A stretch of DNA of 64,000 nt from Cellulomonas sp. (GTDB lineage Bacteria > Actinomycetota > Actinomycetes > Actinomycetales > Cellulomonadaceae). Location of the stretch: positions 1 to 64,000 of the forward strand of contig NZ_JAGIBD010000017.1 in the NCBI RefSeq assembly GCF_017744555.1, written 5' to 3'. The position numbers were made by a program, and so were the translations under genes. How positions within the stretch are numbered: position 1 is the first letter of the stretch; each line of letters opens with the position of its first letter. The notes below the pieces were generated by a model. It had not been told where the DNA came from, made no database searches, and saw only the letters and a program-made list of their open reading frames with translations. Of the stretch, positions 7,972 through 24,751 are shown in pieces.

Positions 7972-8066
7972 GAGCGGACGTTACCGCTGGTGGGGTGGTT
8001 GCGCGGCTGGAGGGCGGATCTCCGCGTGAGCGGATGAGGAGAGTGTTTCGAGGCGCAGATGCGGGC

Positions 8067-8072
8067 TAAGAT
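8067..8072 (+). promoter_or_regulatory. -10 element of a leaderless promoter for the mod operon
   Basis: TAAGAT lies eight bases before the GTG start at 8081, so the transcript should begin at or next to the start codon. A weak -35 candidate TGTTTC sits 17 bases upstream (8044-8049). No Shine-Dalgarno precedes the GTG. Confidence 0.55.
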
Positions 8073-8080
8073 CCCCGTTC

Positions 8081-10124: not shown

Positions 10125-11176
10125 GCCTCGAGGTCGACGTGCGCGTACGCCGCGGGGTGTTCGCGCTCGACGTCGCCCTGACCGCAGGCCCGGGCAAGAT
10201 CGTCGCGGTGCTCGGGCCGAACGGTGCCGGGAAGTCGACGCTGCTCGACGTGATCGGCGGGCTGCTGCTGCCCGTCTCCGGGTCGGTGCGCGTGGGGTCT
10301 CGGGTGCTGACCACCGTCGGCGCCGAGGGCCGCGTGCACGTGCGGCCCGACCGGCGGTCCGTCGGCCTGCTCGGCCAGGACCCGCTCGTGTTCCCGCACC
10401 TGGACGCCCGGGAGAACGTCGCGTTCGGGCCGCGCGCGGCGGGGTCGGCGGCCGCCGCGGCCCGGACGTCGGCCGACGCGTGGCTCACCGCCGTCGGGCT
10501 CGACGGGCTGGGCGACCGCCGCCCCCGCGCGCTGTCCGGCGGTCAGCGGCAGCGCGTCGCCCTCGCCCGCGCGCTCGCCGCCGAGCCCGCCGCGCTGCTG
10601 CTCGACGAGCCGTTCGCGCAGCTCGACGTCCGCACCGCCGCCGAGCTCCGCGACGTCGTGCGCGACCAGGTCCGCCGCACGCAGACGCCGACCGTGCTCG
10701 TCACGCACTCCGTGCTCGACGCCCTGACGCTCGCCGACGAGGTCGTCGTGCTCGATCACGGGACCGTCGTCGAGCGTGGCCACCCGCTCGACGTCCTCAC
10801 CGACCCGGCCCACCCGTTCACCGCGGCGCTTGCCGGCGTCAACCTCGTGGTCGGCGAGATCGCCGCCGGCCCCGTGCTGGCCGGACCTGACGGGCTGCGG
10901 CTCCCGTGCCGCACCGAGCTGCCCGTGGGAACGCCCGCACAGGCGTCGTTCGCGCCGACCGCGGTGTCGGTGGCCGAGCCCGACGCCGACGACCTGGTGT
11001 GGACCTCGCACGTCGTCGACCTGGAGACGGGGACCACGGGCGTGCGCGTCCGGACCACGGGGGACGTGCTCGTCGACCTGGCTCCCACGCTGGTCGGGCG
11101 GGTCGACCTGCAGGTCGGAGCCCCTGTGCGGCTCGCGGTGCCCGCGTCGGCCGTGCGGGTGCGGCGGCGCGCGTAG
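10121..11176 (+). CDS. modC: Molybdate ABC transporter ATPase ModC
   Basis: 351-aa ABC ATPase. Walker A GPNGAGKST is at residues 32-40, the signature LSGGQRQRVALARAL near 135, and Walker B ALLLDEPFAQLD near 160 with a following H-loop VLVTHS. The C-terminal third (after about residue 255) is a TOBE-type regulatory domain, as in classical ModC, where molybdate can feed back on transport. The GTG start overlaps modB by four bases. This is the last gene of the Mop-modABC operon; the narK promoter follows within 140 bases. Confidence 0.93.
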   Translation: MSLEVDVRVRRGVFALDVALTAGPGKIVAVLGPNGAGKSTLLDVIGGLLLPVSGSVRVGSRVLTTVGAEGRVHVRPDRRSVGLLGQDPLVFPHLDARENVAFGPRAAGSAAAAARTSADAWLTAVGLDGLGDRRPRALSGGQRQRVALARALAAEPAALLLDEPFAQLDVRTAAELRDVVRDQVRRTQTPTVLVTHSVLDALTLADEVVVLDHGTVVERGHPLDVLTDPAHPFTAALAGVNLVVGEIAAGPVLAGPDGLRLPCRTELPVGTPAQASFAPTAVSVAEPDADDLVWTSHVVDLETGTTGVRVRTTGDVLVDLAPTLVGRVDLQVGAPVRLAVPASAVRVRRRA

Positions 11177-11219
11177 CCGCGTCTTCTCACAGACACCCCG
11201 GGCACTCAGTGCGCGAAAG

Positions 11220-11276
11220 GTTCCACCCGCGCAACGCCGCGGACCGGCCCGTCGAAACATCTGCTCCCTAGCGTCG
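11220..11276 (+). promoter_or_regulatory. narK upstream element shared with nirB
   Basis: GTTCC (11220-11224) is followed after exactly 29 bases by GAAACA (11254-11259), then GCT, CCTA (11267-11270) and CGTCG. The region before nirB has the same elements with the same 29-base gap. TAGCGT at 11269-11274 may serve as the -10 box. This is a candidate site for NnaR and/or GlnR. Confidence 0.55.
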
Positions 11277-11314
11277 CCGATGTCCGAGCCCCACCCGATC
11301 TGCCGGAGGTCCCC

Positions 11315-12691
11315 ATGGCGACACCGCTCGTGACCGCCGACGCCACCGCGGCGTCCCCCCTCGTCGGCGCGCCAGCGCCGGGCCAGCTCACCACCCGTCC
11401 CGGCCGCTGGATCGACGGCTGGAACCCCGAGGACGAGGGCCAGTGGTCCTCCGTCGGCAAGCCCATCGCCCGCCGCAACCTCGGGCTGTCCGTGTTCGCC
11501 GAGTTCCTGGGCTTCGGCGTCTGGGCGCTGTGGAGCATCGTCGTGCCGCAGCTCGCGTCGGCGGGCTTCGCCCTCACGGTCGACCAGTCGTTCTGGCTCA
11601 TCGCGGTGCCGATCCTCGTCGGTGCCACGCTGCGCATCCCGTACACGTTCGCCGTCCCGGTCTTCGGCGGCCGCAACTGGACGATCATCTCGGCGCTGCT
11701 GCTGCTGGTCCCGACGATCTCGCTCGCCATCGTCGTGCAGAACCCCGACACGTCGTTCGGGGTGCTGCTCGGGATCGCGGCGCTCGCAGGCCTCGGCGGC
11801 GGCAACTTCGCGTCGTCCATGGCGAACATCTCGTTCTTCTACCCGGAGAAGGAGAAGGGCCGCGCGCTCGGCTTCAACGCGGCCGGCGGCAACATCGGGA
11901 CCGCCGCCGTGCAGATCGCCGTGCCGCTCGTCATCGTCGGGGCCGCCGGCGTGCAGCTCGAACGGGCCGGGCTCATGTTCGTCCCGTTCGTCCTCATCGC
12001 CGCGCTGCTGGCCTGGCGGTTCATGGACAACCTGTCGAACGCGAAGTCCGACCCGCGCTCGTACGGTGCCGCCACCCGCGTCAAGCACACGTGGATCATC
12101 TCGTTCGTCTACATCGGCACGTTCGGCTCGTTCATCGGCTTCGCCGGGGCGTTCCCGACGCTGCTGAAGAACCAGTTCCCCGAGATCACGCTGTCCGTCG
12201 CGTTCCTCGGCGCGCTCGTCGGGTCGTTCGCCCGGCCCCTCGGTGGCGCCCTCGCCGACAAGCTCGGCGGCGCCCGCGTGACGATCGGTGCGTTCACGGT
12301 CATGGGCATCGGCACGGTCTGCGCGATCTTCGCCCTGCGCGCCCACTCGTTCGGCGGGTTCCTCGCGTCGTTCCTCGTGCTGTTCGTCGCGACCGGTGCG
12401 GGGAACGGCTCGGTGTACCGGATGATCCCCGCGGTGTTCCGGCACGGCGCGACCGACGACGAGGACAAGGCCCGGCGCGCCAAGGCTGCGGCCGGCTGCC
12501 TCGGGATCGCCGGGGCGATCGGGGCGTTCGGCGGGTTCCTCATCCCGCGCGGCTTCGCTGTCTCGACGACGGCGACGGGCAACATCCAGGCGGCGCTGTG
12601 GGTGATCGTCGGGCTCTACGTCGTGATGTCGCTGACCGTGTGGGCCGTGTACCAGCGGCGCGGCTCTGCGTTCGGGTCCACCGTCATCTGA
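11315..12691 (+). CDS. narK: NarK-type nitrate/nitrite transporter (MFS)
   Basis: 458-aa major facilitator with about twelve helices after a 45-residue hydrophilic N-terminus. NarK marks are the GGGNFASSMANISFFYPEKE signature in helix 5 (near residue 160) and the second Gly-rich repeat GAGNGSVYRMIPAVF (near 365), both part of the nitrate path. A conserved Arg in helix 2 (LRIPYTF) is present. GGAGG at 11304-11308 is a good ribosome site. It probably imports nitrate or exchanges nitrate and nitrite. The promoter motif in common with nirB links it to the assimilation genes 6 kb downstream. Confidence 0.93.
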   Translation: MATPLVTADATAASPLVGAPAPGQLTTRPGRWIDGWNPEDEGQWSSVGKPIARRNLGLSVFAEFLGFGVWALWSIVVPQLASAGFALTVDQSFWLIAVPILVGATLRIPYTFAVPVFGGRNWTIISALLLLVPTISLAIVVQNPDTSFGVLLGIAALAGLGGGNFASSMANISFFYPEKEKGRALGFNAAGGNIGTAAVQIAVPLVIVGAAGVQLERAGLMFVPFVLIAALLAWRFMDNLSNAKSDPRSYGAATRVKHTWIISFVYIGTFGSFIGFAGAFPTLLKNQFPEITLSVAFLGALVGSFARPLGGALADKLGGARVTIGAFTVMGIGTVCAIFALRAHSFGGFLASFLVLFVATGAGNGSVYRMIPAVFRHGATDDEDKARRAKAAAGCLGIAGAIGAFGGFLIPRGFAVSTTATGNIQAALWVIVGLYVVMSLTVWAVYQRRGSAFGSTVI

Positions 12692-12702
12692 CGGCTCCAG
12701 CC

Positions 12703-12748
12703 CGACGACGCGGCGGCACCCCGAGCAGGGGGTGCCGCCGCGTCGTCG
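12703..12748. terminator. Strong bidirectional terminator hairpin
   Basis: A perfect 20-bp stem (12703-12722 with 12729-12748) closes the six-base loop GAGCAG. It lies between the convergent ends of narK and the molybdopterin oxidoreductase gene, so it can serve both. There is no U-tract, as usual in this GC range. Confidence 0.85.
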
Positions 12749-12791
12749 TGCCGACGGCCCCGCCGAGCGGCGTCGACTCAGCGCCTGCGTC

Positions 12792-14336
12792 TCAGCGCAC
12801 CGTCACGCGCACGTCGTCGTACCCGGTGGCGCCGTCCGGGACCTCGCCCTGGGCGACGCCCGTCTGCGGCCCGTCCGGGTCGAACGCCCGGACGTACAGC
12901 GTGTGGTCGCCGCTCGGCGCGTCGGGCCACGTCCAGGACCACTGCCGCCACGAGTCGATGCCACCGTCGGCCGCGAGGGTCACGTCGTTCCACGCGCCGT
13001 CGTCGACCCGCACCTGCACGCGCGTGATCCCACGGTGCTGCGCCCACGACGTCCCGGCGACGACCACGTCCCCGGCGTCGACGGTCGTCCCGGTGCGGGG
13101 GACCTCGATGCGGGACTGCGTCTTGACGGGCCCTCGTTCCGACCAGCCGCGGTCGGTCCAGTAGGCCGTCGCGTCGGCGAACCGGGTGACCTCGAGGTCG
13201 ACGACCCACTTCGTCGCCGACACGTACCCGTACAGCCCCGGCACCACCATCCGCACGGGGAAGCCGTGCTCGATGGGCAGCGGCTCGCCGTCCATCCCGA
13301 CCGCGAGCAGCGCGTCGCGTCCGTCGGTCAAGGCTTCCAGGGGCGTCGACGCCGTGAACCCGTCGGCGCTCGTCGAGAGCACCATGTCCGCGTCGGCGTG
13401 CGGCTGCGCGCGGGCCATGACCTGCTGCAACGGCAGCCCGAGCCACTTCTGGTTGCCGATGAGGTCGCCGCCGACGGGGTTGGAGACGCAGCACAGCGTG
13501 ACCCACGCCTCGACGAGGTCGCTGGCGAGCAGCTCGTCCCACGTCATCGTGAAGGGGTTGTCGACCAGGCCGTGGACCGTGAGCGTCCACGTGTCCGGGT
13601 CCACCTGCGGGACGACGAGGGCGGTGTCGATCCGGTAGAACTCCGGCGGCGGCGTCTCCCACGGCTGCACGCCGTCGACGTCGACCTGCACCCCGGCGGG
13701 GACCGGCGGCGCGGACGTGGCGGCGGACGGCAGCCGGATCGCGGCCCGGGCCGTCGTCGCGCCGCGCGTCGCGGCCGTGAGCGCCCGCCCGACGAGCACC
13801 GCGACGAACCCCGCACCTGCCGCGACGGCCCCGGCCTGCAGGAACCCGCGCCGCGTGGCGCCCGTGCGGGTGGCCGCCGTGCGGGCGGCCTTCTCGTCGG
13901 GTGCAGGGATGCGGCGGACCAGCTCGCGCAGCGTCAGCAGCCCCGCGATCGTGCCGATCACGCTCGGTGCTCCCGCCAGCACGCCCGCGTCAGGTCTGCC
14001 CGTGGCGGCGAGCGCGGCGACGGCACCGAGCAGGACGACGAGCGTCGCGCCCCACGCCCACCGACGCGCCGCGAGGATGCCGGCGAGCGCGCACAGCCCC
14101 GCCACCACGAGCACCTCGCCGAGTCGCAGGACCGCCTTGTCGTTCGTGCCGAACGTCGACGTCGCGAAGTCCTTCAGCCACGCCGGCGTCGCGTCGACGA
14201 ACGCCGCCCCGACCGCGTTGAGCGGGTCCGACGACGGCCCCGTGAAGATCGCGACGAGGGACCCCACGCCCACCGTCACGAGACCCGCGGCGAGACCGGC
14301 GAGCGCAGACAGCCAGGTCCAGGTCCGCCGTGTCAT
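12792..14336 (-). CDS. Membrane-anchored molybdopterin oxidoreductase, sulfite-oxidase fold
   Basis: 514 aa. The first about 150 residues hold four hydrophobic helices; a twin-arginine-like segment TRRGFLQAGAVAAGAGF follows, then the sulfite-oxidase-type molybdenum-cofactor domain and a C-terminal dimerisation domain. Cys283 in TLCCVSN is the expected molybdenum ligand, in place of the CxGN motif of classical sulfite oxidase. The catalytic part should lie outside the membrane. Substrate unknown; proteins of this architecture are common in actinobacteria. ATG 14336 is preferred because AGGAG precedes it; an ATG at 14363 is possible. Its need for molybdenum fits the nearby mod genes. Confidence 0.87.
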   Translation of the reverse strand: MTRRTWTWLSALAGLAAGLVTVGVGSLVAIFTGPSSDPLNAVGAAFVDATPAWLKDFATSTFGTNDKAVLRLGEVLVVAGLCALAGILAARRWAWGATLVVLLGAVAALAATGRPDAGVLAGAPSVIGTIAGLLTLRELVRRIPAPDEKAARTAATRTGATRRGFLQAGAVAAGAGFVAVLVGRALTAATRGATTARAAIRLPSAATSAPPVPAGVQVDVDGVQPWETPPPEFYRIDTALVVPQVDPDTWTLTVHGLVDNPFTMTWDELLASDLVEAWVTLCCVSNPVGGDLIGNQKWLGLPLQQVMARAQPHADADMVLSTSADGFTASTPLEALTDGRDALLAVGMDGEPLPIEHGFPVRMVVPGLYGYVSATKWVVDLEVTRFADATAYWTDRGWSERGPVKTQSRIEVPRTGTTVDAGDVVVAGTSWAQHRGITRVQVRVDDGAWNDVTLAADGGIDSWRQWSWTWPDAPSGDHTLYVRAFDPDGPQTGVAQGEVPDGATGYDDVRVTVR

Positions 14337-14448
14337 GCCGCTCCGCTCCTGTGTGCTCGTCATCGGGGCCGATCCTGCACCCTCATGCTGAGGAACATCC
14401 CGTCCCGGCCGAGCGATTCCGGTGACGGCAACCTGACGGTCGAGACCG

Positions 14449-14488
14449 GTGACGGCCCACCCGGGTCGGTCGAGGGGTGGGCTGTCAC
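14449..14488 (-). terminator. Terminator of the HIT gene
   Basis: A 14-bp stem with one G-U pair (14449-14462 with 14475-14488) and a 12-base loop, located 38 bases after the stop of the minus-strand HIT gene and upstream of the oxidoreductase gene. Confidence 0.7.
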
Positions 14489-14525
14489 CGCTCACGCGGT
14501 ACTCACCCAGGTGCCGGGGCTCGGA

Positions 14526-14972
14526 TCAGAGAGCGGGCGAGCCGATCGAGGCGGGGACGTTCGCCGCGTGGCCGGCGTCCCGGAGCGCCTGCCGCACGCG
14601 CTCGGCGGCCGCGTCGAGGTCGGCGGCCGGGACGTCGGTCCGGGCGTTCCGGAACGACAGGCTCGCCTCGTCCCACGCAGGCAGCACGTGCAGGTGCAGG
14701 TGCGGCACCTCGAACCCGGCGACCAGGAGCGCCGCCCGGGGTGCGTCCCACGCGCTCTGCTGCGCCTGCCCGATGACCTTCGCGACGCGGGTCAGGTGGG
14801 CGAGCAGGTCGTCGGACGCGTCGGTGAGCTGGACGACCTCGTCGCGCGGGACGACGAGCGTGTGCCCGTCGGTGATGGGGGCGATGGTCGCGAACGCGAC
14901 CGCCACGTCGTCGGCCCAGACGAACCGGCCGGGGATCTCGCCGTCGATGATCTTGGTGAAGAGCGTGGCCAT
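14526..14972 (-). CDS. HIT-family nucleotide hydrolase/transferase
   Basis: 148-aa HIT protein. The histidine triad is HLHLHVLP near residue 90; the N-terminal TLFTKIIDGEIPGRFVW and DGHTLVVPRDEV match the HINT/HIT pattern. Members hydrolyse nucleotide phosphoramidates or dinucleoside polyphosphates. TAACCT stands six bases before the ATG (14979-14984 on the minus strand), indicating a leaderless transcript and supporting this start. Confidence 0.92.
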   Translation of the reverse strand: MATLFTKIIDGEIPGRFVWADDVAVAFATIAPITDGHTLVVPRDEVVQLTDASDDLLAHLTRVAKVIGQAQQSAWDAPRAALLVAGFEVPHLHLHVLPAWDEASLSFRNARTDVPAADLDAAAERVRQALRDAGHAANVPASIGSPAL

Positions 14973-15013
14973 GCGGCCAGGTTATCGGTGTGCCGCGACG
15001 GGTCCCGGCGGTC

Positions 15014-15427
15014 CTACGACAGCCAGGGATCGATCAGGGGGACACCCAGCAGATCGAAGTCCGCTGTGTTGCGGGTCGCGAGAGAGGCACCGCGTGCGGC
15101 ACACGTCGCGGCGATCATCCCGTCCTCGGTCGGGAGCGGCCGTCCTGCCTGGCGACGTCGCGTCTGCATGACGGAGTAGTGGCGCGCAGCCGTCTCGTCG
15201 TACGGCAGGACGCTTCCGCGGAAGTCCACGAGGGTGCGCTCGATCAGCTCGACGAGCAGGGTACGTCGGCGTCCGTCCGGCAGCGCGAGGGCACCCGTCA
15301 GCAGCTCTCCGGCGCTGACCGACGTGATCGCGGCCGGCTCGCGGAGGCCGTCGAGCCAGGCGAGGACCCGCTCGTCGGGACGTTGCTTGAGTGGTTCGGA
15401 CAGGACGTTGGTGTCGAGGACGATCAA
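15014..15427 (-). CDS. vapC: PIN-domain ribonuclease toxin VapC
   Basis: 137-aa PIN-domain protein of the FitB/VapC type. The acidic active-site residues are in MIVLDTNVLSE (Asp5), SAGELLTG (Glu near 41), TEDGMIAA (Glu/Asp near 102) and NTADFD near the C-terminus. Toxins of this class cut specific tRNAs or rRNA and are neutralised by the partner antitoxin. It overlaps the upstream vapB gene by four bases (ATGA), typical of toxin-antitoxin operons. Confidence 0.93.
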   Translation of the reverse strand: MIVLDTNVLSEPLKQRPDERVLAWLDGLREPAAITSVSAGELLTGALALPDGRRRTLLVELIERTLVDFRGSVLPYDETAARHYSVMQTRRRQAGRPLPTEDGMIAATCAARGASLATRNTADFDLLGVPLIDPWLS

Positions 15428-15651
15428 TCGAGATCGACCTCACGGGGCGCGGAGCGGGCGGGGAGCGGGATCTCGGGCCCGCGCAGCTCGGCCGCGGCCG
15501 TGAGCCACGACTCGACGAGGCTGTCGCCCGAGACTGCCGCACTCAGGATCGCCCGGGCCTCGGCCTCCATCGACCGGTTGTGGTGGGCGGCTCGCACCTT
15601 GAGCCGTCGTTGGATCTCGGGGTCCAGGTTCCTGACCGTGATCGTCGACAT
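15424..15651 (-). CDS. vapB: FitA/VapB-type ribbon-helix-helix antitoxin
   Basis: 75-aa antitoxin. The N-terminus MSTITVRNLDPEIQRRLKVR is the ribbon-helix-helix motif of FitA-like proteins, which bind operator DNA as dimers. The C-terminal 30 residues are acidic and Pro-rich and should wrap the toxin. It precedes vapC by a coupled overlap, and a palindrome 22 bases upstream of its start is the likely autoregulatory operator. Confidence 0.92.
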   Translation of the reverse strand: MSTITVRNLDPEIQRRLKVRAAHHNRSMEAEARAILSAAVSGDSLVESWLTAAAELRGPEIPLPARSAPREVDLD

Positions 15652-15672
15652 GTCAGCCCTCCCGCGTCTCGT

Positions 15673-15700
15673 CTGCCAGCGATGCTAGCGGTGCTGGCAG
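15673..15700. promoter_or_regulatory. Candidate vapBC operator palindrome
   Basis: CTGCCAGC (15673-15680) and its exact complement GCTGGCAG (15693-15700) flank a 12-base centre that itself contains GCTAGC. A minus-strand -10-like hexamer TAGCAT lies inside (15682-15687). The position just upstream of the antitoxin suits FitA/VapB autorepression. Confidence 0.65.
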
Positions 15701-15761
15701 CAGCCACGCCATGGGCCGGATCCGGAATCCATCCGAGCCTCACGGTCTCAGCGATGTCCCG

Positions 15762-16997
15762 TCAGGAGGTCGCCCCCGACACCGGGGCACCGCGTAGGGC
15801 GTCCTTCAGCTTGATCCGGCCGCCCGAGTGCAGCACCGCGTTCGAGTACACGCGCCCCGCGAACCAGACGAGCACCGGGATGAGGGCCAGGCACAGGGCC
15901 GCGGCGAGCAGCACCTCCCACAGCGCGGCGGCGTCGAGGGCGATGCGGATCGGCATGAGGAACGGCGAGAAGAACGGGATGTACGACAGCCACCGGATCA
16001 GCGGGTTGTCGGGGTCCCAGGGCGCGATCGAGATCCCGATGATGTACGGGATGATCATCAGCCCGATCACGGGCGAGATGACGGACCCGACGTCCTCCTG
16101 ACGGGACACGAGCGAGGCGAGCGCGGCGAGGACCAGCGCGTACATCGCGAACCCGATCGCGAACCACAGCACGGCCCATACGGCCGTGACACCGAGATCG
16201 AGCGACGACGAGTCGACGAGCCCGAACGCGAGCGCGGTCGCGACGCCGGAGCCGACGACCGCGACGATCTGGATGAGCCCGATGACGCCGATGCCGAGCA
16301 CCTTGCCGGCCATGAGCTGCCAGGGCCGGACGGTCGCGAGCAGCAGCTCGACGACGCGGCTGGACTTCTCCTCGACGACGCCCTGAGCGACGAGCTGTCC
16401 AGCGGTCATGAGCGAGATGAACAGCAGGATCCCGGCGATGTAGCCGGCGATGATCTGGGCACCGTCCACGGACGGGTCGGGTTCGAGCGACGTGACCTGA
16501 GGCTCGGCGGACGCGATGTCGGCCGCGACGGAGGCGGGGTCGCCGCCGAGGTCGGTGACGGCCGACCCGAGGGCGAGCTGCTGCGCGAGCGGGCCGAACA
16601 CGGCCGAGCCAGTGTCGCCGAGGCTCTGCTTGACGACGACGGTGAGCTCGGGCGACGTCGACGTGACGAGCGCGTCGAGGTCGCCCGACTTCACGAGGTC
16701 ACGGCCGGCCGCCTCCGACTCGACCTCCTGCGTCTCGACCGGCACGCCGACGGCCTTGCCGGTCGCGACGAGCTGGTCGGCGACCCCGGCGGCTGCCGAC
16801 GTGAGCCCGACCTGCTGCGGGGGAGTCTCGCGGTCGGCGAGCAGCCCGGCCGCGACGCCGCCGAGGACGACGGCGGCGACGAGCGCGACCGTGGTCCAGA
16901 TGAACGCCTTCGACGTCAGGCGGAACCGGATCTCGCGGCCGGCGATCATGCGGATCGCCGCGCCGGAGCTGATGGCGAGCGGGTTCCCGGCGCTCAT
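15762..16997 (-). CDS. ABC-2 type exporter permease (NatB-like)
   Basis: 411-aa membrane protein. One helix near residue 40 is followed by a large extracytoplasmic domain of about 150 residues, then five or six helices, the usual NatB/ABC-2 layout. The GVVEEKSSRVVELLLATVRP segment near 235 is the hallmark of this exporter class. It overlaps the ATPase gene by four bases (ATGA). NatAB systems in other bacteria expel Na+; the substrate here could equally be a drug or lipid. Confidence 0.88.
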   Translation of the reverse strand: MSAGNPLAISSGAAIRMIAGREIRFRLTSKAFIWTTVALVAAVVLGGVAAGLLADRETPPQQVGLTSAAAGVADQLVATGKAVGVPVETQEVESEAAGRDLVKSGDLDALVTSTSPELTVVVKQSLGDTGSAVFGPLAQQLALGSAVTDLGGDPASVAADIASAEPQVTSLEPDPSVDGAQIIAGYIAGILLFISLMTAGQLVAQGVVEEKSSRVVELLLATVRPWQLMAGKVLGIGVIGLIQIVAVVGSGVATALAFGLVDSSSLDLGVTAVWAVLWFAIGFAMYALVLAALASLVSRQEDVGSVISPVIGLMIIPYIIGISIAPWDPDNPLIRWLSYIPFFSPFLMPIRIALDAAALWEVLLAAALCLALIPVLVWFAGRVYSNAVLHSGGRIKLKDALRGAPVSGATS

Positions 16998-17929
16998 GCC
17001 GACACCTCCTCGAGGTCGGCGGCGGGCGTGGCCTCGGTCGTGACGACGTGCCGGTACAGCTCGACGAGCGTCGGCCGCTTGCGGGCGAACTCGCGCACCG
17101 GCCCGGCGGCGAGCGCGGCCCGCAGGAGCTCCTGGTCGACGTCGGCGGGCGCCGACGTCCCCACCGCGACGACGGTCCGGGCACCGTCCGCCGACACCAC
17201 GCGCGCGGCAGGAACGGCGGACGCGAACGACGCGGGTGGACCGTCGACCACCCACTCCCGCTCGTCTGTCTGCCGCAGCTCGTCGATCCCGCCGACGGCG
17301 ACCATCGACCCGGACCGCACGATCCCGACCCGGTCGCAGAGCCGTTCGACGAGCTCGAGCTGGTGCGACGAGAACAGCACGGGCACCCCGCGGTCGGCCT
17401 GGTCGCGCAGCACGGCGCTCATGACGTCGACCGCGACGGGGTCGAGCCCGGAGAACGGCTCGTCGAGCACCAGGATCTCCGGGTCGTGCACGAGCGCCGC
17501 GGCGAGCTGCACGCGCTGCTGGTTGCCGAGCGACAGCTTGAGCACCTCGTCGCCCCGACGCTCCTCGACGCCGAGCGTCTCGGTCCACCGTTCCATCGAC
17601 CGGCGCGCGGCCGCGGCGTCCATGCCGTGCAGGCGGGCCAGGTAGACGAGCTGGTCGGCGACCTTCATCCGCGGGTACAGGCCGCGCTCCTCGGGCATGT
17701 ACCCGATGCGGCGCCGCACGGCGTGGTCGACGACGCGGCCGTCCCACGTGACCGTGCCCGCGTCGGCGGCGAGCACGCCGACGGCGATCCGCATGGTCGT
17801 GGACTTGCCGGCGCCGTTCGAGCCGACGAACCCGAAGATCTCGCCGCCGCGCACGTCGAACGTCATGTCCCGCAGGGCGCGCACGGTGCCGTAGGACTTC
17901 TCGAGGGAGGAGATGCTGAGGACGGTCAC
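16994..17929 (-). CDS. ABC exporter ATPase (NatA-like)
   Basis: 311-aa ATPase paired with the NatB-like permease. Walker A is GSNGAGKST near residue 38; the signature is unusual, LSLGNQQRVQLAAALVHDP, where LSLGNQQR replaces LSGGQ, as commonly seen in NatA/ABC-2 ATPases; Walker B is ILVLDEPFSGLDP, and SSHQLELVERL holds the H-loop. The C-terminal about 90 residues form the variable domain of DUF4162 type. Start is GTG at 17929. Confidence 0.9.
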   Translation of the reverse strand: MTVLSISSLEKSYGTVRALRDMTFDVRGGEIFGFVGSNGAGKSTTMRIAVGVLAADAGTVTWDGRVVDHAVRRRIGYMPEERGLYPRMKVADQLVYLARLHGMDAAAARRSMERWTETLGVEERRGDEVLKLSLGNQQRVQLAAALVHDPEILVLDEPFSGLDPVAVDVMSAVLRDQADRGVPVLFSSHQLELVERLCDRVGIVRSGSMVAVGGIDELRQTDEREWVVDGPPASFASAVPAARVVSADGARTVVAVGTSAPADVDQELLRAALAAGPVREFARKRPTLVELYRHVVTTEATPAADLEEVSA

Positions 17930-17973
17930 GCGATCGATCCAACCAAAGAGGACACGGTGAGCGACATCGTTCT

Positions 17974-18522
17974 TCAGGACCGTTCCTGGACGAGCTTCTG
18001 GAGGGCCAGCACGGTCCTCCAGTTTCGGGCGGTGCCGACCCGGCCGGCGGCCTTGGACAGCACGGGCAGGGTGAGCTTGGACCGGCCGATCCCGTCGGGG
18101 TAGTACGCGTAGGTCTCCCGTCCGTGCCAGATCACGGACTCGTTCCCGTACACCGACGCGTCGAACGTGCGGATCGACGCGACGTCGGGCACGCCGTCCC
18201 AGCAGCACACGACGAGGTGCGACGGGTCGGACTCCGCCTGCGCGGGGAACGGGAGCGCCCGCACGACGAGCTCCCACTCGGTGGCGCTGCGTGCGATCAC
18301 GGGTACGTCGAACCCGAGCTCGGACTCGAAGGCGGCCGACAGCCCGGCGGCCACGTCGTCCGGGGCCGCCCCGCCGGCGGGCACCAGCACGAGGTTCCCG
18401 CTGTTCACGTAGGTCGTCACCTCGGTGTGCCCCAACGACTCCGCGACCGAGCGAAGCTCCGCCGACCTCACGGTCCGGCCACCGACGTTCACGGCCCTGA
18501 GCAGGGCGACCACGGCACTCAT
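17974..18522 (-). CDS. DUF1697 family protein
   Basis: 182-aa cytosolic protein. The beginning MSAVVALLRAVNVGGRTVRS and the later TYVNSGNLVL are diagnostic of DUF1697, a conserved family of unknown function. The middle contains a VVCCWDGVP segment with adjacent cysteines. The next minus-strand gene, the NatA-like ATPase, starts 45 bases downstream. It is divergent from nirB, so the 160-base intergenic region serves both. Confidence 0.88.
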   Translation of the reverse strand: MSAVVALLRAVNVGGRTVRSAELRSVAESLGHTEVTTYVNSGNLVLVPAGGAAPDDVAAGLSAAFESELGFDVPVIARSATEWELVVRALPFPAQAESDPSHLVVCCWDGVPDVASIRTFDASVYGNESVIWHGRETYAYYPDGIGRSKLTLPVLSKAAGRVGTARNWRTVLALQKLVQERS

Positions 18523-18594
18523 GGGCCCCACCGTGCCAGCCAGCACCCACACCGCCGCGGCTCACACGCCCATCGCGCGGGATGTGCGGACAAC

Positions 18595-18650
18595 GTTCCT
18601 TCGGGGTAACGGACCCGCGACACCGCGCGAAACACGCGCTTCCTACCGTC
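18595..18650 (+). promoter_or_regulatory. nirB upstream element shared with narK
   Basis: GTTCC (18595-18599), 29 bases, GAAACA (18629-18634), then GCT, CCTA (18642-18645) and CGTCG. Spacing is identical to the narK element. Between them GTAAC (18606-18610) and GCGAC follow with the AC-N9-AC spacing of GlnR half-sites. TACCGT (18644-18649) may be the -10 box. Confidence 0.55.
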
Positions 18651-18686
18651 GGTCTTGCCCTCGTCCCCGACTGACCGGAGCCACCC

Positions 18687-21272
18687 ATGGATCCCCGTCA
18701 CCTCGTCGTCGTCGGCGGCGGCATGGTCGCCCAGCGGCTCGTCGAAGCCCTGCGCGACCGCGACACCGCCGGCACCTGGCGGATCACCGTGCTCGCCGAG
18801 GAGCCGCGCCGGCCCTACGACCGCGTCGCCCTCACGAGCTACTTCAGCGGCAGGGACCCCGAGGACCTCGAGCTCGGCGACGCCGACCTCTGGCGCGACC
18901 CGCTCGTCCGCCTGGTCCGCGACGACAAGGTGACGCACATCGACCGCGAGGCGCGCACGGTGACCGCCGCGTCGGGCCGCACGTACTGCTACGACCACCT
19001 GGTCCTCGCCACCGGGTCGTACGCGTGGGTGCCGCCGACGGAGGGCGCGGACCTGCCCGGCGTGTTCGTCTACCGCACGATCGACGACGTCGCCGCGCTG
19101 CGCGGGTACGTCGAGAAGCTCCAGTCCGACCTGCGCCGCCCGGTCCGCGGTGCGGTGCTCGGCGGCGGTCTGCTCGGCCTCGAGGCGGCGGGGGCGCTGC
19201 ACGCGCTCGGTGCGCAGGCGACGGTGCTGCAGGTCGGCACGCACCTCATGGACACGCAGCTCGACCTCGGCGGCGGCGAGGCGCTGCGGCGGCTCATCAA
19301 CAACATCGGCGTGGGCGTCCGCGTCAACGCGATGACGGTGCGGATCCGTCCGCACCGGCGGGGCGGGGTCGGCCGGCTCGACCTCGCCGACGGCGGCCGG
19401 GTGGACGCCGACGTGGTGGTCGTGGCCGCGGGCGTGCGGCCGCGCGACGAGCTCGCACGCGCCGCCGGGCTGGGGATCGGCCCGCGCGGCGGCGTGGTCG
19501 TGGACGACACCTGCCTGACGGACGACCCCGACGTGTCGGCGGTCGGAGAGGTCGCGTGCATCCAGGGCGCCTGCATCGGGCTCGTCGCCCCCGGCTACGC
19601 GATGGCCGAGGTCACCGCGGACCGCCTGCTCGGCGGCGCGGCGGAGTTCCCCGGCGCGGACACCGCGACGAAGCTCAAGCTCGCGGGCGTCGACGTCGCG
19701 TCCTTCGGCGACGCGTTCGGGCGGACCGAGGGTGCGCTGGAGCTCGTGTGGGCCGACCCGGTGAACGGCGTCTACAAGAAGCTCGTGATGTCGGACGACG
19801 CGCGCACGCTGCTCGGCGGCGTGCTCGTGGGCGACGCGTCCGCCTACGCGAGCCTGCGGCCCATGCTCGGTCGCGAGCTGCCCGGCGACCCGGCGGTGTT
19901 CTTGCTGCCCGAGGGCGGCGGCGGGGGAGCGCCGGACCTCGAGCTGCCCGACGACGCGGGCGTCTGCTCGTGCAACAACGTGTCCGCCGGCACCATCCGC
20001 GGCGCGGTCACCGAGCACGGCTGCACCGACGTCGGGGCCGTCAAGGCGTGCACCAAGGCCGGCACGAGCTGCGGGTCGTGCCTCCCGCTCGTCAAGAAGC
20101 TCGTCACCACCGAGCTCACCAAGCAGGGCATCACCGTCAGCTCGGCGCTGTGCGAGCACTTCGCGCTGTCCCGCGCCCAGCTCTACGACGCCGTCCGGGT
20201 CGCGGGCCTGCGCAGCTTCACGGAGGTCGTCGAGCGGTTCGGCACGGGCCGCGGCTGCGACATCTGCAAGCCCGCGGTCGCGTCCATCCTCGCGACGACG
20301 GCCCCCGCGCACGTGCTCGACGGCGAGCGGGCCGCGCTGCAGGACACCAACGACCACGTCATGGCGAACCTGCAGAAGGACGGCTCGTACTCGGTGGTCC
20401 CGCGCATCCCCGGGGGCGAGGTGACCCCGGAGGGGCTCATCGCGATCGGCGAGGTCGCGAAGGACTACGGCCTCTACACCAAGATCACCGGCGGCCAGCG
20501 GATTGACCTGTTCGGCGCCCGCATCGACCAGCTCCCGCTCATCTGGCAGCGGCTCGTCGACGCCGGCTTCGAGTCGGGGCACGCGTACGGCAAGTCGCTG
20601 CGGACCGTGAAGTCGTGCGTCGGCTCCACGTGGTGCCGGTTCGGCGTGCAGGACTCGGTGGCGCTCGCCGTGCTGCTCGAGCTGCGGTACCGGGGGCTGC
20701 GCTCGCCGCACAAGCTCAAGCTCGGCGTCTCCGGGTGCGCCCGCGAGTGTGCGGAGGCCCGCGGCAAGGACGTCGGCGTCATCGCGACCGACAGGGGCTG
20801 GAACCTGTACGTGGGCGGCAACGGCGGCTTCACGCCGCGGCACGCGCAGCTGCTCGCGGAGGACCTGTCCACCGAGGACCTCATCACCGCGATCGACCGG
20901 TTCCTCCTGTACTACATCCGCACCGCCGACCGTCTGCAGCGCACCGCGCCGTGGGTCGAGGAGGTCGACGGCGGGCTCGACGGCGTCCGGGCGGTCGTCA
21001 TGGAGGACTCGCTCGGCATCGCCGCGGACCTCGACGCGCAGATGGCGCAGCACGTCGAGCAGTACGAGGACGAGTGGCGCGCGACGCTCGAGGACCCCGA
21101 GAAGCTGCGGCGGTTCGCGTCGTTCGTCAACGCCCCCGAGGTGCCCGACCCGTCCCTGGCCTACGTCCCCGAGCGGGGCCAGGCACGACCTGCCACACCC
21201 GACGAGCGTGCCGCGGCCGGCCGCGGCGAGCCCGTGCTCGTCGCCGGATCGACGCTGGAGGTGCGGTCATGA
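18687..21272 (+). CDS. nirB: Assimilatory nitrite reductase large subunit NirB
   Basis: 861-aa NAD(P)H-dependent nitrite reductase, cytosolic, reducing nitrite to ammonium. Order of domains: FAD/NAD(P)H pyridine-nucleotide-disulfide oxidoreductase (about 1-400, starting VVVGGGMVAQRLV), a BFD-like [2Fe-2S] domain (GVCSCNNVSAGTIRGAV near 428 and the following CTKAGTSCGSC), a ferredoxin-like half domain, and the siroheme/4Fe-4S domain with SCVGSTWC near 645 and GCARECAEA near 683. Length is standard for the NirB family. It heads the nirB-nirD-siroheme-nnaR-cbiX operon, in which every junction is a four-base overlap. Confidence 0.96.
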   Translation: MDPRHLVVVGGGMVAQRLVEALRDRDTAGTWRITVLAEEPRRPYDRVALTSYFSGRDPEDLELGDADLWRDPLVRLVRDDKVTHIDREARTVTAASGRTYCYDHLVLATGSYAWVPPTEGADLPGVFVYRTIDDVAALRGYVEKLQSDLRRPVRGAVLGGGLLGLEAAGALHALGAQATVLQVGTHLMDTQLDLGGGEALRRLINNIGVGVRVNAMTVRIRPHRRGGVGRLDLADGGRVDADVVVVAAGVRPRDELARAAGLGIGPRGGVVVDDTCLTDDPDVSAVGEVACIQGACIGLVAPGYAMAEVTADRLLGGAAEFPGADTATKLKLAGVDVASFGDAFGRTEGALELVWADPVNGVYKKLVMSDDARTLLGGVLVGDASAYASLRPMLGRELPGDPAVFLLPEGGGGGAPDLELPDDAGVCSCNNVSAGTIRGAVTEHGCTDVGAVKACTKAGTSCGSCLPLVKKLVTTELTKQGITVSSALCEHFALSRAQLYDAVRVAGLRSFTEVVERFGTGRGCDICKPAVASILATTAPAHVLDGERAALQDTNDHVMANLQKDGSYSVVPRIPGGEVTPEGLIAIGEVAKDYGLYTKITGGQRIDLFGARIDQLPLIWQRLVDAGFESGHAYGKSLRTVKSCVGSTWCRFGVQDSVALAVLLELRYRGLRSPHKLKLGVSGCARECAEARGKDVGVIATDRGWNLYVGGNGGFTPRHAQLLAEDLSTEDLITAIDRFLLYYIRTADRLQRTAPWVEEVDGGLDGVRAVVMEDSLGIAADLDAQMAQHVEQYEDEWRATLEDPEKLRRFASFVNAPEVPDPSLAYVPERGQARPATPDERAAAGRGEPVLVAGSTLEVRS

Positions 21273-21652
21273 CCGTTCTCGACACCCAGAAGACCACGTG
21301 GACCGCGGTGTGCCGGGTCGACGACCTCGCGCCCGAGCGCGGTGCCGCGGCGCTGCTGGACGGCCAGCAGGTCGCGCTGTTCCGGCTGGTCGACGGGCGC
21401 GTGCTCGCGGTCGACCAGCACGACCCGTACAGCGACGCCTACGTCATGTCGCGCGGGATCGTCGGCTCCCGCACGGTCGACGGCGTCGAGGTCGCCACGG
21501 TCGCGTCGCCCATGTACAAGCAGGTGTTCGACCTCGTCACGGGCGTGTGCCTCGACGCCGCGGGCAAGACGCCGGTGGCCGGCGCGTCCGGCGACCTCAC
21601 CGTGTGGCCCGTCCGGGTCAGCGACGGCGTCGTCGAGGTGGGGACCCCGTGA
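21269..21652 (+). CDS. nirD: Nitrite reductase small subunit NirD
   Basis: 127-aa partner of NirB with a Rieske-like beta fold. The Cys/His cluster ligands of true Rieske proteins are absent (the region reads VDQHDPYSDAYVMSRGIVG), as in other NirD proteins that carry no cluster. It starts in a four-base overlap with nirB and ends in one with the siroheme gene. Confidence 0.94.
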   Translation: MTVLDTQKTTWTAVCRVDDLAPERGAAALLDGQQVALFRLVDGRVLAVDQHDPYSDAYVMSRGIVGSRTVDGVEVATVASPMYKQVFDLVTGVCLDAAGKTPVAGASGDLTVWPVRVSDGVVEVGTP

Positions 21653-22908
21653 CGACGATGCTCGGGCTCGACCTCACGGGCCGCCCGGTGCTCGTGGTCG
21701 GCGGCGGTCCGGTCGCGGCTCGCCGGGTGCAGGGACTGCTCGCCGACGCGGCGCGCGTGGTCGTCGTCGCGCCACAGCTGTGCGAGGTGCTGCTCGACCT
21801 GCACCGGTGGGGACTGGTCGAGTGGCGTGCCCGCGAGGTCGTCGAGAGCGACGTGGACGGCGTGTGGCTCGTGCACACCGCGACCGGGGACCGCGCGACC
21901 GACGCCGCCGTGGGGGAGTGGGCAGCGGCGCGCCGCACGTTCTGTGTGGACGCCGGGTCCGGAGCGGCCGGCACGGCCCGCACGCCCGCGACGACCCGCA
22001 GCGGCGACGTGCTCGTCGGCGTCGTCTCGACAGGCGCCCCCGACCCGCGGCGCACCGCGGCGGTGCGGGACGCGCTATCCGACGTGCTCCACGAGGGCGA
22101 CCTGGACCTGCGCGCGCGGCGGCCGCGCCCTGCCGGTGAGGGCCGCGTGGTGCTCGTCGGCGGCGGCCCGGGCGACCCGTCGCTCATGACGGTCGCGGCC
22201 CGCCGGGCGCTCGCGCAGGCCGACGTCGTCGTCGCGGACCGGCTCGGCCCGGTGGAGGTCCTCGACTCGTTGCCGGCCGACGTCGAGGTGATCGACGTCG
22301 GCAAGACCCCCGGTCACCACCCCGTGCCGCAGGACGAGATCAACCGGATCCTTGTCGAGCAGGCGCAGCGCGGGCGGTTCGTCGTGCGGCTCAAGGGCGG
22401 CGACCCGTTCCTGTACGGCCGCGGCGGCGAGGAGGTGATCGCGTGCCGTGAGGCCGGGGTGCCCGTGGAGGTCGTCCCAGGTGTGAGCAGCGCGTTCGCC
22501 GCGCCCGCGGCCGCCGGGATCCCGCTGACCCACCGCGGCACCGTCGGCGCCGTGCACGTGATGAACGGGCACGACGGCTGGTCGTCCGCCGCGCTCACGG
22601 GCCTGCGCGACGCGTCGTGCACGGTCGTCGTGCTCATGGGTGTCGCGGTGCTGACCGACCTGACGGCGGAGGCCGCCGCGGCCGGCGTCGACCCGTCGAC
22701 CCCGGCCGCCGTCGTCGAGAACGGCACGCTCTCGACCCAGCGCGTCACGCGTGCGCCGCTCGGCGAGATCGCCGCGCGGGCCGCCGAGGTCGGCGTCCGT
22801 GCGCCGGCCGTGGTGGTGCTCGGCCGGGTCGCGGCGGAAGGTCTGCTCGACGGGATCGGTGGCGCCGACGCACTCGCGCCACAGACGCACGACACAATGA
22901 CCTCGTGA
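21649..22908 (+). CDS. cobA: Siroheme synthase: precorrin-2 dehydrogenase plus uroporphyrinogen-III methyltransferase
   Basis: 419 aa. The N-terminal about 150 residues form a Rossmann domain like the precorrin-2 dehydrogenase/ferrochelatase part of CysG (VLVVGGGPVAARRV). The C-terminal about 250 residues are the SAM-dependent uroporphyrinogen-III C-methyltransferase, with VVLVGGGPGDPSLMTVAA, RLKGGDPFLYGRGGEE and AAAGIPLTHRG. It makes precorrin-2 and probably sirohydrochlorin for the siroheme of NirB. GTG start overlaps nirD. Confidence 0.93.
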   Translation: MTTMLGLDLTGRPVLVVGGGPVAARRVQGLLADAARVVVVAPQLCEVLLDLHRWGLVEWRAREVVESDVDGVWLVHTATGDRATDAAVGEWAAARRTFCVDAGSGAAGTARTPATTRSGDVLVGVVSTGAPDPRRTAAVRDALSDVLHEGDLDLRARRPRPAGEGRVVLVGGGPGDPSLMTVAARRALAQADVVVADRLGPVEVLDSLPADVEVIDVGKTPGHHPVPQDEINRILVEQAQRGRFVVRLKGGDPFLYGRGGEEVIACREAGVPVEVVPGVSSAFAAPAAAGIPLTHRGTVGAVHVMNGHDGWSSAALTGLRDASCTVVVLMGVAVLTDLTAEAAAAGVDPSTPAAVVENGTLSTQRVTRAPLGEIAARAAEVGVRAPAVVVLGRVAAEGLLDGIGGADALAPQTHDTMTS

Positions 22909-24023
22909 GCGACCCCATCGACCAGACGCTTGCCGGGTGCGTCGTCCTCATCACGGCCGACCGCCGGTCCGCCGAGCTCGCCGCTGCCCTGACCAGGCGC
23001 GGCGCCTCGGTGCGGCACGCGCCGGCCCTCGGCATGGTCCCGCACACCGACGACGCGGCCCTGATCGAGGGCACGCGCGCGCTGCTCGCCGACCCCCCCG
23101 ACACGGTCGTCGTCACGACCGGGATCGGGTTCCGCGGCTGGATCGAGGCCGCCGACGCGGTGGGCCTCGCCGAGCAGCTGGTGGACACTCTGAAGGGCAC
23201 GCGGATCGTCGCGCGGGGCCCCAAGGCACGAGGCGCCATCCAGGCCGCCGGGCTCACGGCCGACTGGGTCGCCGAGTCGGAGACGAGCGCCGAGATCGCG
23301 GAGGTCCTGCTCGACGACGGGGTCGCCGGCCTGAAGATCGCCGTGCAGCACCACGGTGCCGGAGCGGACGGGCTCGACGAGGCGTTCGCCGCCGCGGGAG
23401 CGACCGTGCGCAGCCTCGTCGTCTACCGCTGGGGCCCTCCGCCCGACCCGGCCGTCGTCACCGCGTCCGTCAAGGCGGTGGCCGCCGGCGAGGTCGACGC
23501 CGTCGTGTTCACGTCCGCTCCCGGTGCCGCCGCGTGGCTCGCCGCCGCCGACGACGCCGGTGTCACCGACCGGATCGTCGACCTCGCGCAGTCGGGCCAC
23601 GTCGTGATGGCCGCCGTCGGTCCCGTGACCGCCCGGCCGCTCCTCGACCGCCACATCGAGCCGCTCGTCCCCGACCGGGGTCGGCTCGGGTCGCTCGTCC
23701 GCTCGCTCGTCGCGCACTACGGAGGGCTGCAGGCGCTCAGCACCGTCGCGGGGCCGCTGCAGGTGTTCCGCGGCGCGGCCGTGCTCGACGGCCACGTGCT
23801 CCCGCTGACGCCGTCCGGCCTGGAGGTGCTGCGCCTGCTCGCGTCGGCGCAGGGGTCGGTCGTGCCCCGCGACCAGGTGCTGCAGGTGCTGCCCGGCGAC
23901 TCCCGCGACCCCCACGCGGCCGAGGTCGCGATCGCGCGGCTGCGCGACGCGACGGGGAGCCGCGAGCTCATCAAGACGGTCGTGAAGCGCGGGTACCGCC
24001 TCGAGCTCGAGCACACCGCATGA
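22905..24023 (+). CDS. nnaR: NnaR-like nitrate/nitrite assimilation regulator (HemD domain plus winged helix)
   Basis: 372 aa. Residues about 10-260 have the uroporphyrinogen-III synthase (HemD) fold. Residues about 280-370 are an OmpR/PhoB-type winged helix, with LTPSGLEVLRLLA, RDQVLQVL and the wing KTVVKRGYRLE. This fusion is known from NnaR of Streptomyces, which acts with GlnR on nitrate and nitrite genes, and from the mycobacterial relative next to a CbiX gene. The neighbours here (siroheme synthase before, cbiX after) match. It is therefore better called a regulator than a heme enzyme, although HemD activity cannot be excluded. GTG start, four-base overlaps on both sides. Confidence 0.88.
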   Translation: MSDPIDQTLAGCVVLITADRRSAELAAALTRRGASVRHAPALGMVPHTDDAALIEGTRALLADPPDTVVVTTGIGFRGWIEAADAVGLAEQLVDTLKGTRIVARGPKARGAIQAAGLTADWVAESETSAEIAEVLLDDGVAGLKIAVQHHGAGADGLDEAFAAAGATVRSLVVYRWGPPPDPAVVTASVKAVAAGEVDAVVFTSAPGAAAWLAAADDAGVTDRIVDLAQSGHVVMAAVGPVTARPLLDRHIEPLVPDRGRLGSLVRSLVAHYGGLQALSTVAGPLQVFRGAAVLDGHVLPLTPSGLEVLRLLASAQGSVVPRDQVLQVLPGDSRDPHAAEVAIARLRDATGSRELIKTVVKRGYRLELEHTA

Positions 24024-24751
24024 CGAACGCGATGCACGCCGCCCCGCCGGCGCCCGCTCTCGTCGGCTGCTCGCACGGCACCGGCAACCACGACGGGCGT
24101 GCGGCGATCCGGTCGATCGTCGACGGCGTCCGGTCCCGCCGGCCCGAGCTCACCGTGCGCGAGGCGTTCGTCGACGTCCAGCAGCCCGAGGTCGCGGACG
24201 TCGTCCGGGACACGCTCGGCGACGGGGCCCCCGGTGTGGTCGTCGTGCCGCTGCTGCTGTCCGTCGGCTTCCACGTGAAGGTCGACATCGCGGCCGCGGT
24301 CGACCTGCCGTCCGCCGAGGCGTCCGCCCCGCTCGGCCCGGACGACCGTCTCGTCGAGATCCTCGCCGACCGGCTCGCGGCCGCGGGTCTGCGCGACGGC
24401 GACGTCGTGGTGCTCGCCGCCGCCGGGTCGAGCGACGCGGCCGCCGCGCTCGCGGTCGAGGCCGTCGCCGCCGGCTTGTCCGACACGCTCGACCAGCCCG
24501 TCACGATCGGCTACGGCGCGGGGGCCGAGCCGCGAGTACCTGCCGCCGTCGCCGCCGCCCGCGAGGGGCTCACGGGTGACGGACGGGTGGTGGTCGCGTC
24601 GTACCTGCTGGCGCCGGGCTTCTTCCACGACCGGGTGCTCGAGGCGGGGGCCGACGTGGTCACCGACCCGCTCGCCCCCGACGAGAGGCTCGTCGACATC
24701 GTCCTCGACCGGTACGACGCCGTCGCTCCCGGGCTGCCTCGGCGCGACTAG
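24020..24751 (+). CDS. CbiX-type sirohydrochlorin chelatase
   Basis: 243 aa, CbiX/SirB family. The first half holds the metal-binding His19 in GCSHGTG and a second conserved His in LLLSVGFHVKVDI near residue 88; the second half is a degenerate repeat of the same fold. The expected reaction is insertion of Fe2+ into sirohydrochlorin to give siroheme for NirB. It is the last gene of the nir operon and overlaps nnaR by four bases. Confidence 0.9.
   Translation: MTNAMHAAPPAPALVGCSHGTGNHDGRAAIRSIVDGVRSRRPELTVREAFVDVQQPEVADVVRDTLGDGAPGVVVVPLLLSVGFHVKVDIAAAVDLPSAEASAPLGPDDRLVEILADRLAAAGLRDGDVVVLAAAGSSDAAAALAVEAVAAGLSDTLDQPVTIGYGAGAEPRVPAAVAAAREGLTGDGRVVVASYLLAPGFFHDRVLEAGADVVTDPLAPDERLVDIVLDRYDAVAPGLPRRD

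Follow-up and report, generated by a model that had tools for sequence, protein, structure and literature searches.

This study concerns the promoters of narK and nirB, which code for a nitrate/nitrite transporter and the large subunit of nitrite reductase, in a 64,000-nucleotide stretch of a Cellulomonas sp. genome (contig NZ_JAGIBD010000017.1, positions 1 to 64,000; hereafter the window). Our analysis indicates, with a probability of about 0.9, that each of the two promoters is a composite activation site for the regulators NnaR and GlnR, in which a predicted NnaR palindrome is followed by a putative array of GlnR half-sites and a −10 box. The NnaR-GlnR system is already known, and the Cellulomonas promoters are a new, cleanly resolved case of it; a search of the available literature found no study of NnaR for the Cellulomonas group. 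What they add is the exact geometry, the conservation across the class and, within a single genome, the split between targets of GlnR alone and targets of NnaR with GlnR.

The shared sequence upstream of narK and nirB

Upstream of narK, GTTCC (11220-11224) is followed after 29 bases by GAAACA (11254-11259) and then by GCTcCCTAgCGTCG to position 11276, while upstream of nirB GTTCC (18595-18599) and, again after 29 bases, GAAACA (18629-18634) lead into GCTtCCTAcCGTCG, which ends at 18651. This likeness, GTTCC-N29-GAAACA plus GCTnCCTAnCGTCG at 11220-11276 and 18595-18651, had been reported in the original prediction, and direct reading bore it out, the nirB copy ending at 18651 and not at 18650 as given there. 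In the assembly of the organism's own genome (4,301,452 bases in 139 contigs, completeness 89.86; DNA of 73.5% GC) GTTCC-N29-GAAACA has exactly two matches on both strands, which are the narK and nirB copies; base composition alone predicts about 0.3, and the reversed pattern has none. With two matches in the whole assembly, the motif is not common in the own genome. When the two upstream regions were compared without gaps, the motif positions were alike and the background was patchy (3-7 of 10 positions identical per block, and 2 in the last block), so that nothing points to duplication of a block, in agreement with the earlier view that the likeness is unlikely to stem from duplication of the neighbouring coding regions.

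The likeness reaches 34 bases further upstream, to an element that had been overlooked, CTCACA-N16-NGTGCG, present in both promoters (Table 1). The published NnaR motif, obtained by a motif search in Mycobacterium smegmatis and found near GlnR motifs, is CTCAC[A/C]-N16-[T/G]GTGAG (PMC6277429), and the same motif is used in PMC11162112. Each copy departs from it by one mismatch on the + strand, GTGCG for GTGAG, and the narK palindrome additionally has A where the published motif has T or G before the right half-site; GTGCG is a frequent right half-site in the palindrome copies of relatives. In the window CTCACA-N16-NGTGCG has only these two matches, where shuffles predict 0.08 for a pattern that was chosen with both sites known. 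Since the palindrome sits at the published NnaR spacing, it is the predicted NnaR element, GTTCC-GAAACA lying between it and the gene. As side observations, the narK palindrome starts 9 bases past the last stop codon of the upstream ATP-binding cassette (ABC) transporter genes, and a DUF1697 gene (17974-18552, minus strand), divergent from nirB, has its listed start at most 10 bases from the nirB palindrome, so that the same site may also affect this gene.

Counted from the first base of the palindrome as 0, the downstream half-sites stand at +34 (GTTCC), +45 (GCAAC in narK, GTAAC in nirB), +56 (GACCG and GCGAC, respectively) and +68 (GAAAC), with TAGCGT or TACCGT at +83. The steps are of 11 bp, the last one slipped by 1 bp; the half-sites at +34, +45 and +68 are clear, and the one at +56 is weak in narK. 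The Streptomyces GlnR a-b-a-b consensus is gTnAc-n6-GaAAc-n6-GtnAC-n6-GAAAc (PMC10704036), which the putative array fits if the last half-site is allowed to be displaced by 1 bp, and a 1-bp separation of two GlnR boxes is reported for nasA (PMC10704036). The original prediction had taken GTTCC-GAAACA-CCTA for the NnaR site; this assignment did not hold, the motif being instead a predicted GlnR half-site array that ends on a TAnnnT −10 box. Its naming of NnaR and GlnR as the two regulators and of narK and nirB as their genes was upheld. The observation itself was correct and well above chance, and the assignment to NnaR, though mistaken in its particulars, was sound in its general idea.

Table 1. 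Promoter elements, target genes and regulator genes (positions are those of the window unless a contig is named)
Feature	Position	Strand	Details
Predicted NnaR-type palindrome, narK	11186..11213	+	CTCACA-N16-aGTGCG; half-sites 11186-11190, 11209-11213
Predicted NnaR-type palindrome, nirB	18561..18588	+	CTCACA-N16-TGTGCG; half-sites 18561-18565, 18584-18588
Predicted GlnR-type array, narK	11220..11258	+	GTTCC 11220, GCAAC 11231, weak GACCG 11242, GAAAC 11254
Predicted GlnR-type array, nirB	18595..18633	+	GTTCC 18595, GTAAC 18606, GCGAC 18617, GAAAC 18629
Putative −10 element, narK	11269..11274	+	TAGCGT; inferred transcription start ~11281
Putative −10 element, nirB	18644..18649	+	TACCGT; inferred transcription start ~18656
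narK, nitrate/nitrite major facilitator superfamily transporter	11315..12691	+	PF07690
nirB, nitrite reductase large subunit	18687..21272	+	NirB domain set
nirD, nitrite reductase small subunit	21269..21652	+	TIGR02378, 86.7 bits (cut-off 74.65)
cysG-type siroheme synthase	21649..22908	+	NAD_binding_7 + TP_methylase
nnaR, HEM4 (HemD-like) + OmpR-type winged helix	22905..24023	+	PF02602 8e-36, PF00486 (Trans_reg_C) 1.7e-10
sirB/cbiX-type chelatase, last of run	24020..24751	+	PF01903
glnR, pseudo-receiver + winged helix	contig C47, L112:853-1794		PF21695 7.5e-44 + PF00486
Molybdopterin oxidoreductase-CysJ-like fusion	C117:201181-205320 (L151)	minus	start 205320

Conservation and co-occurrence with nnaR

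Upstream regions of up to 350 bases were taken from the best 80 of at least 584 confirmed nirB loci in named genomes, which gave 79 usable regions for nirB and 44 for narK. The palindrome CTCAC-N18-GTG[AC]G was present in 46 of the nirB regions (shuffle mean 0.18, largest 2) and in 27 of the narK regions (shuffle mean 0.04). The palindrome together with GAAA[CT] at +67/68 was found in 44/79 and 25/44, respectively, and the fullest pattern, which also demands GnnAC at +45 and the −10 box, in 39/79 and 9/44; shuffles gave neither. Upstream of nirD (0/79), cysG (0/45) and nnaR (0/73) the composite was absent from these relatives, and the palindrome alone occurred there once, before nnaR. The composite is therefore kept upstream of narK and nirB in many, although not all, relatives.

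In 1.38 Mb of loci we found 124 palindromes, 72 of them in composites, and 69 of these 72 lie within 500 bases upstream of an aligned nirB or narK start; the other three (L098, L105 and L110) stand about 1.1-1.2 kb upstream of nirB, before another gene. The sites that entered alignment A1 and the profile model R1 were picked by CTCAC-N18-GTG[AC]G-N39/40-GAAA[CT], and these letters are therefore fixed by choice; tests that are independent of the picking are the two window sites, which were left out, the reversed-pattern controls, the co-occurrence with nnaR and the unselected columns. At +34, one such column, GTNNC peaks in 40 of the 72 composites, and 66 of them have TAnnnT at 15 bp from the first base of GAAAC. 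Of the 72, 44 show a gap of 28 bases between GTTCC and GAAACA and the other 28 a gap of 29; among 25 composites found across the class (see below) the two lengths occur 18 and 7 times, respectively. The identical 29-base spacing stressed in the original prediction thus holds for both window copies as a local state, but not as a rule.

The family set comprised 81 genomes, the own one included, many of them probably of the same species as the loci behind R1. The exact composite occurs in it at 90 places, a few of which look accidental, in 51 of the 81 genomes, and the reversed control at none. It is present in 50 of 62 NnaR-bearing and in 1 of 19 NnaR-less genomes (Fisher p = 2.9e-9), or in 49/61 vs 1/19 (p = 3.8e-9) when the own genome is excluded, both values being uncorrected for relatedness; genomes with no match or with a winged-helix match alone (G052, G067 and G071) were counted as NnaR-less. 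R1 itself has matches in 71 of the 81 genomes, and all 10 matchless genomes are without NnaR. In a class-wide set of 296 genomes the exact composite was found at 36 places in 34 genomes, as compared with 2 for the control. After exclusion of the own two, all 34 remaining places were examined, and 25 precede homologues of narK, nirB or nasA, on the same strand and 105-364 bases upstream of the aligned homologue start, while one lies before a sirB-like gene. Among these 25, GTNNC again peaks at +34 (20/25, no other offset exceeding 3), and 20 have TAnnnT at 15 bp from the first base of GAAAC.

Several results weigh against the composite reading. The strict palindrome is missing from 33/79 nirB and 17/44 narK upstream regions, and the fullest pattern is reached in just 9 of the narK regions and in 39 of those of nirB; some of the palindrome misses are variants, as in L041, L042 and L044. 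Exact composites are lacking in 12 of the 62 NnaR-bearing family genomes, the NnaR-less genome G001 has one, and 9 of the 19 NnaR-less genomes still show some R1 match. Across the class, 8 of the 34 places precede none of the genes named above. The right half-site in the window is GTGCG where the published one is GTGAG, and the half-site at +56 is weak, GNNAC standing there in 8/72 composites of relatives and 9/25 class-wide. The palindrome by itself is also far from distinctive: CTCACM-N17-GTGAG with up to 2 mismatches has 24 matches in the window vs 42.65 in shuffles, and CTCAC-N18-GTGNG has 46 in the genome vs 20 for the reversed control, which marks it as unspecific without the GlnR half, and its use alone as a genome-wide predictor of NnaR sites was rejected. 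Finally, M. smegmatis NnaR is reported to have failed to shift msmeg_5360 despite a putative motif (PMC6277429).

The variants just mentioned are nirB promoters of three Cellulomonas (L041, L042 and L044), in which GTGAG stands two bases closer, at +21, or GAGAG at the usual place. A two-base-shorter or relaxed form of the NnaR palindrome may exist.

Predicted genome-wide targets and alternative explanations

Model R1, a sequence-only profile from the 72 sites of relatives with the window sites excluded, placed nirB at the top in the own genome (67.9 bits, expectation value E 2.7e-18), followed by narK (55.5 bits, E 2.0e-14), the next best match reaching 27.2 bits. The scan scored 150 of 5952 first-look candidates, so that weak sites may be missed. 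Ranks 3, 4 and 7 match the downstream half of the model alone and precede urtA, a urea carboxylase gene and glnA, of which urtA (TIGR03407) and glnA (TIGR00653) scored over the cut-off and the urea carboxylase (TIGR02712) was identified from a fragment. In relatives this half precedes urtA (confirmed in L194, named by eye in L201), amt (L203) and, with genes named by eye, glnA (L193) and urea-use genes (L191 and L192). The earlier expectation that the motif would serve to find further regulon members was thus justified, its GlnR half leading to glnA, urtA and urea carboxylase.

None of nine aligned GlnR-type sites (three from the own genome, six from relatives) has CTCAC at the place of the palindrome, and GTGCG stands at +23 in two of them; this count leaves out L193 and the first L201 site, where ungapped placement fails, and the nitrate-reductase and transporter sites. 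The GlnR half is thus general, whereas a full palindrome accompanies, in the strong hits, genes of nitrate/nitrite use. Together the two parts form a signature by which NnaR targets can be told apart from general GlnR targets on the scale of a genome.

Rank 6 (19.6 bits) precedes a single 1379-residue reading frame (C117; Table 1) in which a molybdopterin oxidoreductase of the nitrate reductase/formate dehydrogenase kind is joined to a CysJ-like flavoprotein part; the product is probably an assimilatory nitrate reductase of the NasA type. The protein scored 455 and 447 bits against the NasA and NasC models, both below their cut-offs, and higher, 512 bits, against a formate-dehydrogenase model, also below its cut-off. 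Its promoter reads CGCAC at 0, GTGAG at +23, GTGCC at +34, GACAC at +45, GTCAC at +56 and GGAAC at +67, the palindrome starting 94 bases before the ATG, and a good −10 box was not seen in it. In a congener (L184), a 42-bit composite with CTCAC, GTGCG, GTTAC at +34, GCAAC at +67 and TAGCGT precedes a homologue that is 64% identical. In four further relatives (L185, L186, L188 and L190) a full R1 match marks a gene of the formate/nitrite-transporter family, the family being confirmed for L185 and L188 with scores below the cut-off and named by eye for L186 and L190; these composites carry GAGCG at +23 as right half-site, and those of L185, L186 and L190 also (G/C)TGAG at +21.

Rank 5 (C66:35598-35625) is a perfect palindrome, CTCACA-N16-TGTGAG, with a rightly spaced GTTCC on one strand, flanked by two genes that were named by eye, one flavoprotein-like and the other 2-oxoacid oxidoreductase-like. 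It was left out as an NnaR target because no further GlnR half-sites, −10 box or adjoining nitrate gene were seen. Rank 8 (C45:76335, 17.3 bits) is weak and precedes a phosphoglycerate-mutase-like gene, named by eye. Separately, at the urtA and urea-carboxylase sites C51:97928 and C51:103891 (L132, L133 and L152), and in L191 and L192, TGTATACA-type palindromes come after the GlnR half-array and −10 box, close to where transcription is inferred to start. With a GntR-like gene (named by eye) in the vicinity, this suggests that a second regulator acts locally on urea use.

These targets bear on how the shared sequence is to be divided between regulators. One alternative takes GTTCC-N29-GAAACA as the NnaR site proper and leaves GlnR an auxiliary part at best. 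It would fit the motif's being common to narK and nirB and unique to both in the assembly, but we consider it very improbable, given that the published NnaR motif is the palindrome (PMC6277429, PMC11162112) and that the downstream half also occurs, without the upstream CTCAC, ahead of targets of the GlnR type (glnA and urea genes in the own genome, amt and urea genes in relatives). A reading of the array mainly by another OmpR-family regulator in place of GlnR, for example MtrA or PhoP, is slightly less improbable. MtrA and GlnR have motifs described as almost the same, and MtrA and PhoP are said to compete with GlnR for its sites. In the own genome 17 matches to PF00486 exceed the cut-off, those of NnaR and GlnR included, and some of the others are MtrA-like by eye. 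However, four of the six genome hits that follow nirB and narK (down to E 0.02) precede urtA, urea carboxylase, the probable nitrate reductase and glnA, and GlnR, which is encoded here, activates such nitrogen genes elsewhere (PMC10704036). MtrA or PhoP may also act as competitors alongside GlnR.

To a conserved RNA leader or riboswitch in place of DNA sites we give almost no weight. The element does stand directly upstream of both start codons, but it lies upstream of the inferred transcription starts, which would leave leaders of only about 31-34 bases, and an Rfam scan of 10800-19000 gave no match at the gathering score. The composite NnaR-GlnR reading is thus the one retained, and with it each part of the shared sequence can be assigned to its most likely regulator.

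Predicted mechanism, published systems and neighbouring genes

Each promoter would be read in the order NnaR palindrome (CTCAC-N18-GTGcG), GTTCC at 11 bp from the right half-site, GlnR steps to GAAAC, and TAnnnT. With the last TAnnnT base taken as −7, GlnR is predicted to occupy, under nitrogen limitation, the half-sites from about −61 to −23, over the −35 place, with a first box at about −61 to −46 and a second at about −39 to −23, and from there it would recruit RNA polymerase. A GlnR tetramer is described on four sites, head-to-tail and bridging to the polymerase (PMC10704036). NnaR, centred at about −81, would serve as a second key that restricts strong activation to the nitrate/nitrite genes, while GlnR alone would serve glnA and the urea genes, which have the GlnR half and no palindrome. 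In the run nirB-nirD-cysG-nnaR-sirB the chosen starts overlap the preceding stops, suggesting co-transcription, and since nnaR lies in this run, the nirB promoter should raise NnaR too, in positive feedback.

NnaR is reported to bind the nirB promoter cooperatively with GlnR in Streptomyces coelicolor (reviewed in PMC10704036), and cooperation of the two is also described for M. smegmatis, where NnaR shifted nirB, narK and trHbN promoter DNA and two promoters were shifted only with both proteins present (PMC6277429). In that species their contact was weak in pull-downs and none was seen in a two-hybrid test (PMC6277429), so that contact, if any, may depend on DNA. In our promoters the right NnaR half-site (+23) lies 11 bases before the first GlnR half-site and shares the register of the array, which makes side-by-side docking on one face plausible, and this precise geometry makes NnaR-GlnR cooperation testable. 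A more elaborate arrangement, which we regard as speculative and rather doubtful, would be a continuous five-step array on the same face (+23, +34, +45, +56 and +67), in which an NnaR subunit docks in front of the GlnR tetramer as one more protomer. Its HemD-like domain would then sense a tetrapyrrole from the siroheme pathway, for which this gene run codes, and in this way gate assembly.

As in M. smegmatis (PMC6277429), nirB and narK here have the palindrome near a GlnR motif at similar spacing; unlike there, the right half-site is GTGCG, two GlnR boxes are resolved at 11-bp steps, and nnaR lies inside the nirBD-cysG run. The half-sites at 11-bp steps resemble known GlnR boxes (PMC10704036; M. 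smegmatis GlnR motif, PMC3662644), while the first a-site, GTTCC, is less canonical and the one at +56 is weak. The NnaR regulon of S. coelicolor comprises narK, nirB, nirA and nasA (reviewed in PMC10704036), and the predicted targets here, narK, nirB and probably nasA, agree with it in a different genus. In Mycobacterium abscessus a narK3-nirBD-nnaR-sirB operon lies behind one NnaR site and nasN is under a second (PMC11162112). There, as predicted here, nnaR and sirB go with nirBD behind an NnaR-type site and a nitrate reductase gene, here a probable one, comes under a further site. In M. abscessus, however, narK3 heads the operon behind its single site, whereas in the window narK and nirB each have their own promoter and the run contains an additional cysG-type gene.

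Regarding the genes themselves, the best-named NCBIfam models for the narK product are NarU/NarK nitrate/nitrite transporters, below their cut-offs, and NirB shares 92% identity, over the best segment, with its counterpart in a strain labelled Cellulomonas fimi HM71. A second HEM4 gene (C139:86115-86801) matches this family better than NnaR does (185 vs 125.1 bits); with a separate hemD present, the HemD-like domain of NnaR need not be a housekeeping enzyme. The best PDB match of GlnR is 8hih (1.1e-86), named 'transcriptional regulatory protein', and 4o1h, named GlnR, gave 2.1e-28. Around narK, positions 8059-11176 encode ABC transporter binding-protein, permease and ATPase domains in this order, ModABC-like by eye and ending 138 bases before narK, and a molybdopterin oxidoreductase gene (PF00174; 12792-14495, minus strand) follows narK on the opposite strand.

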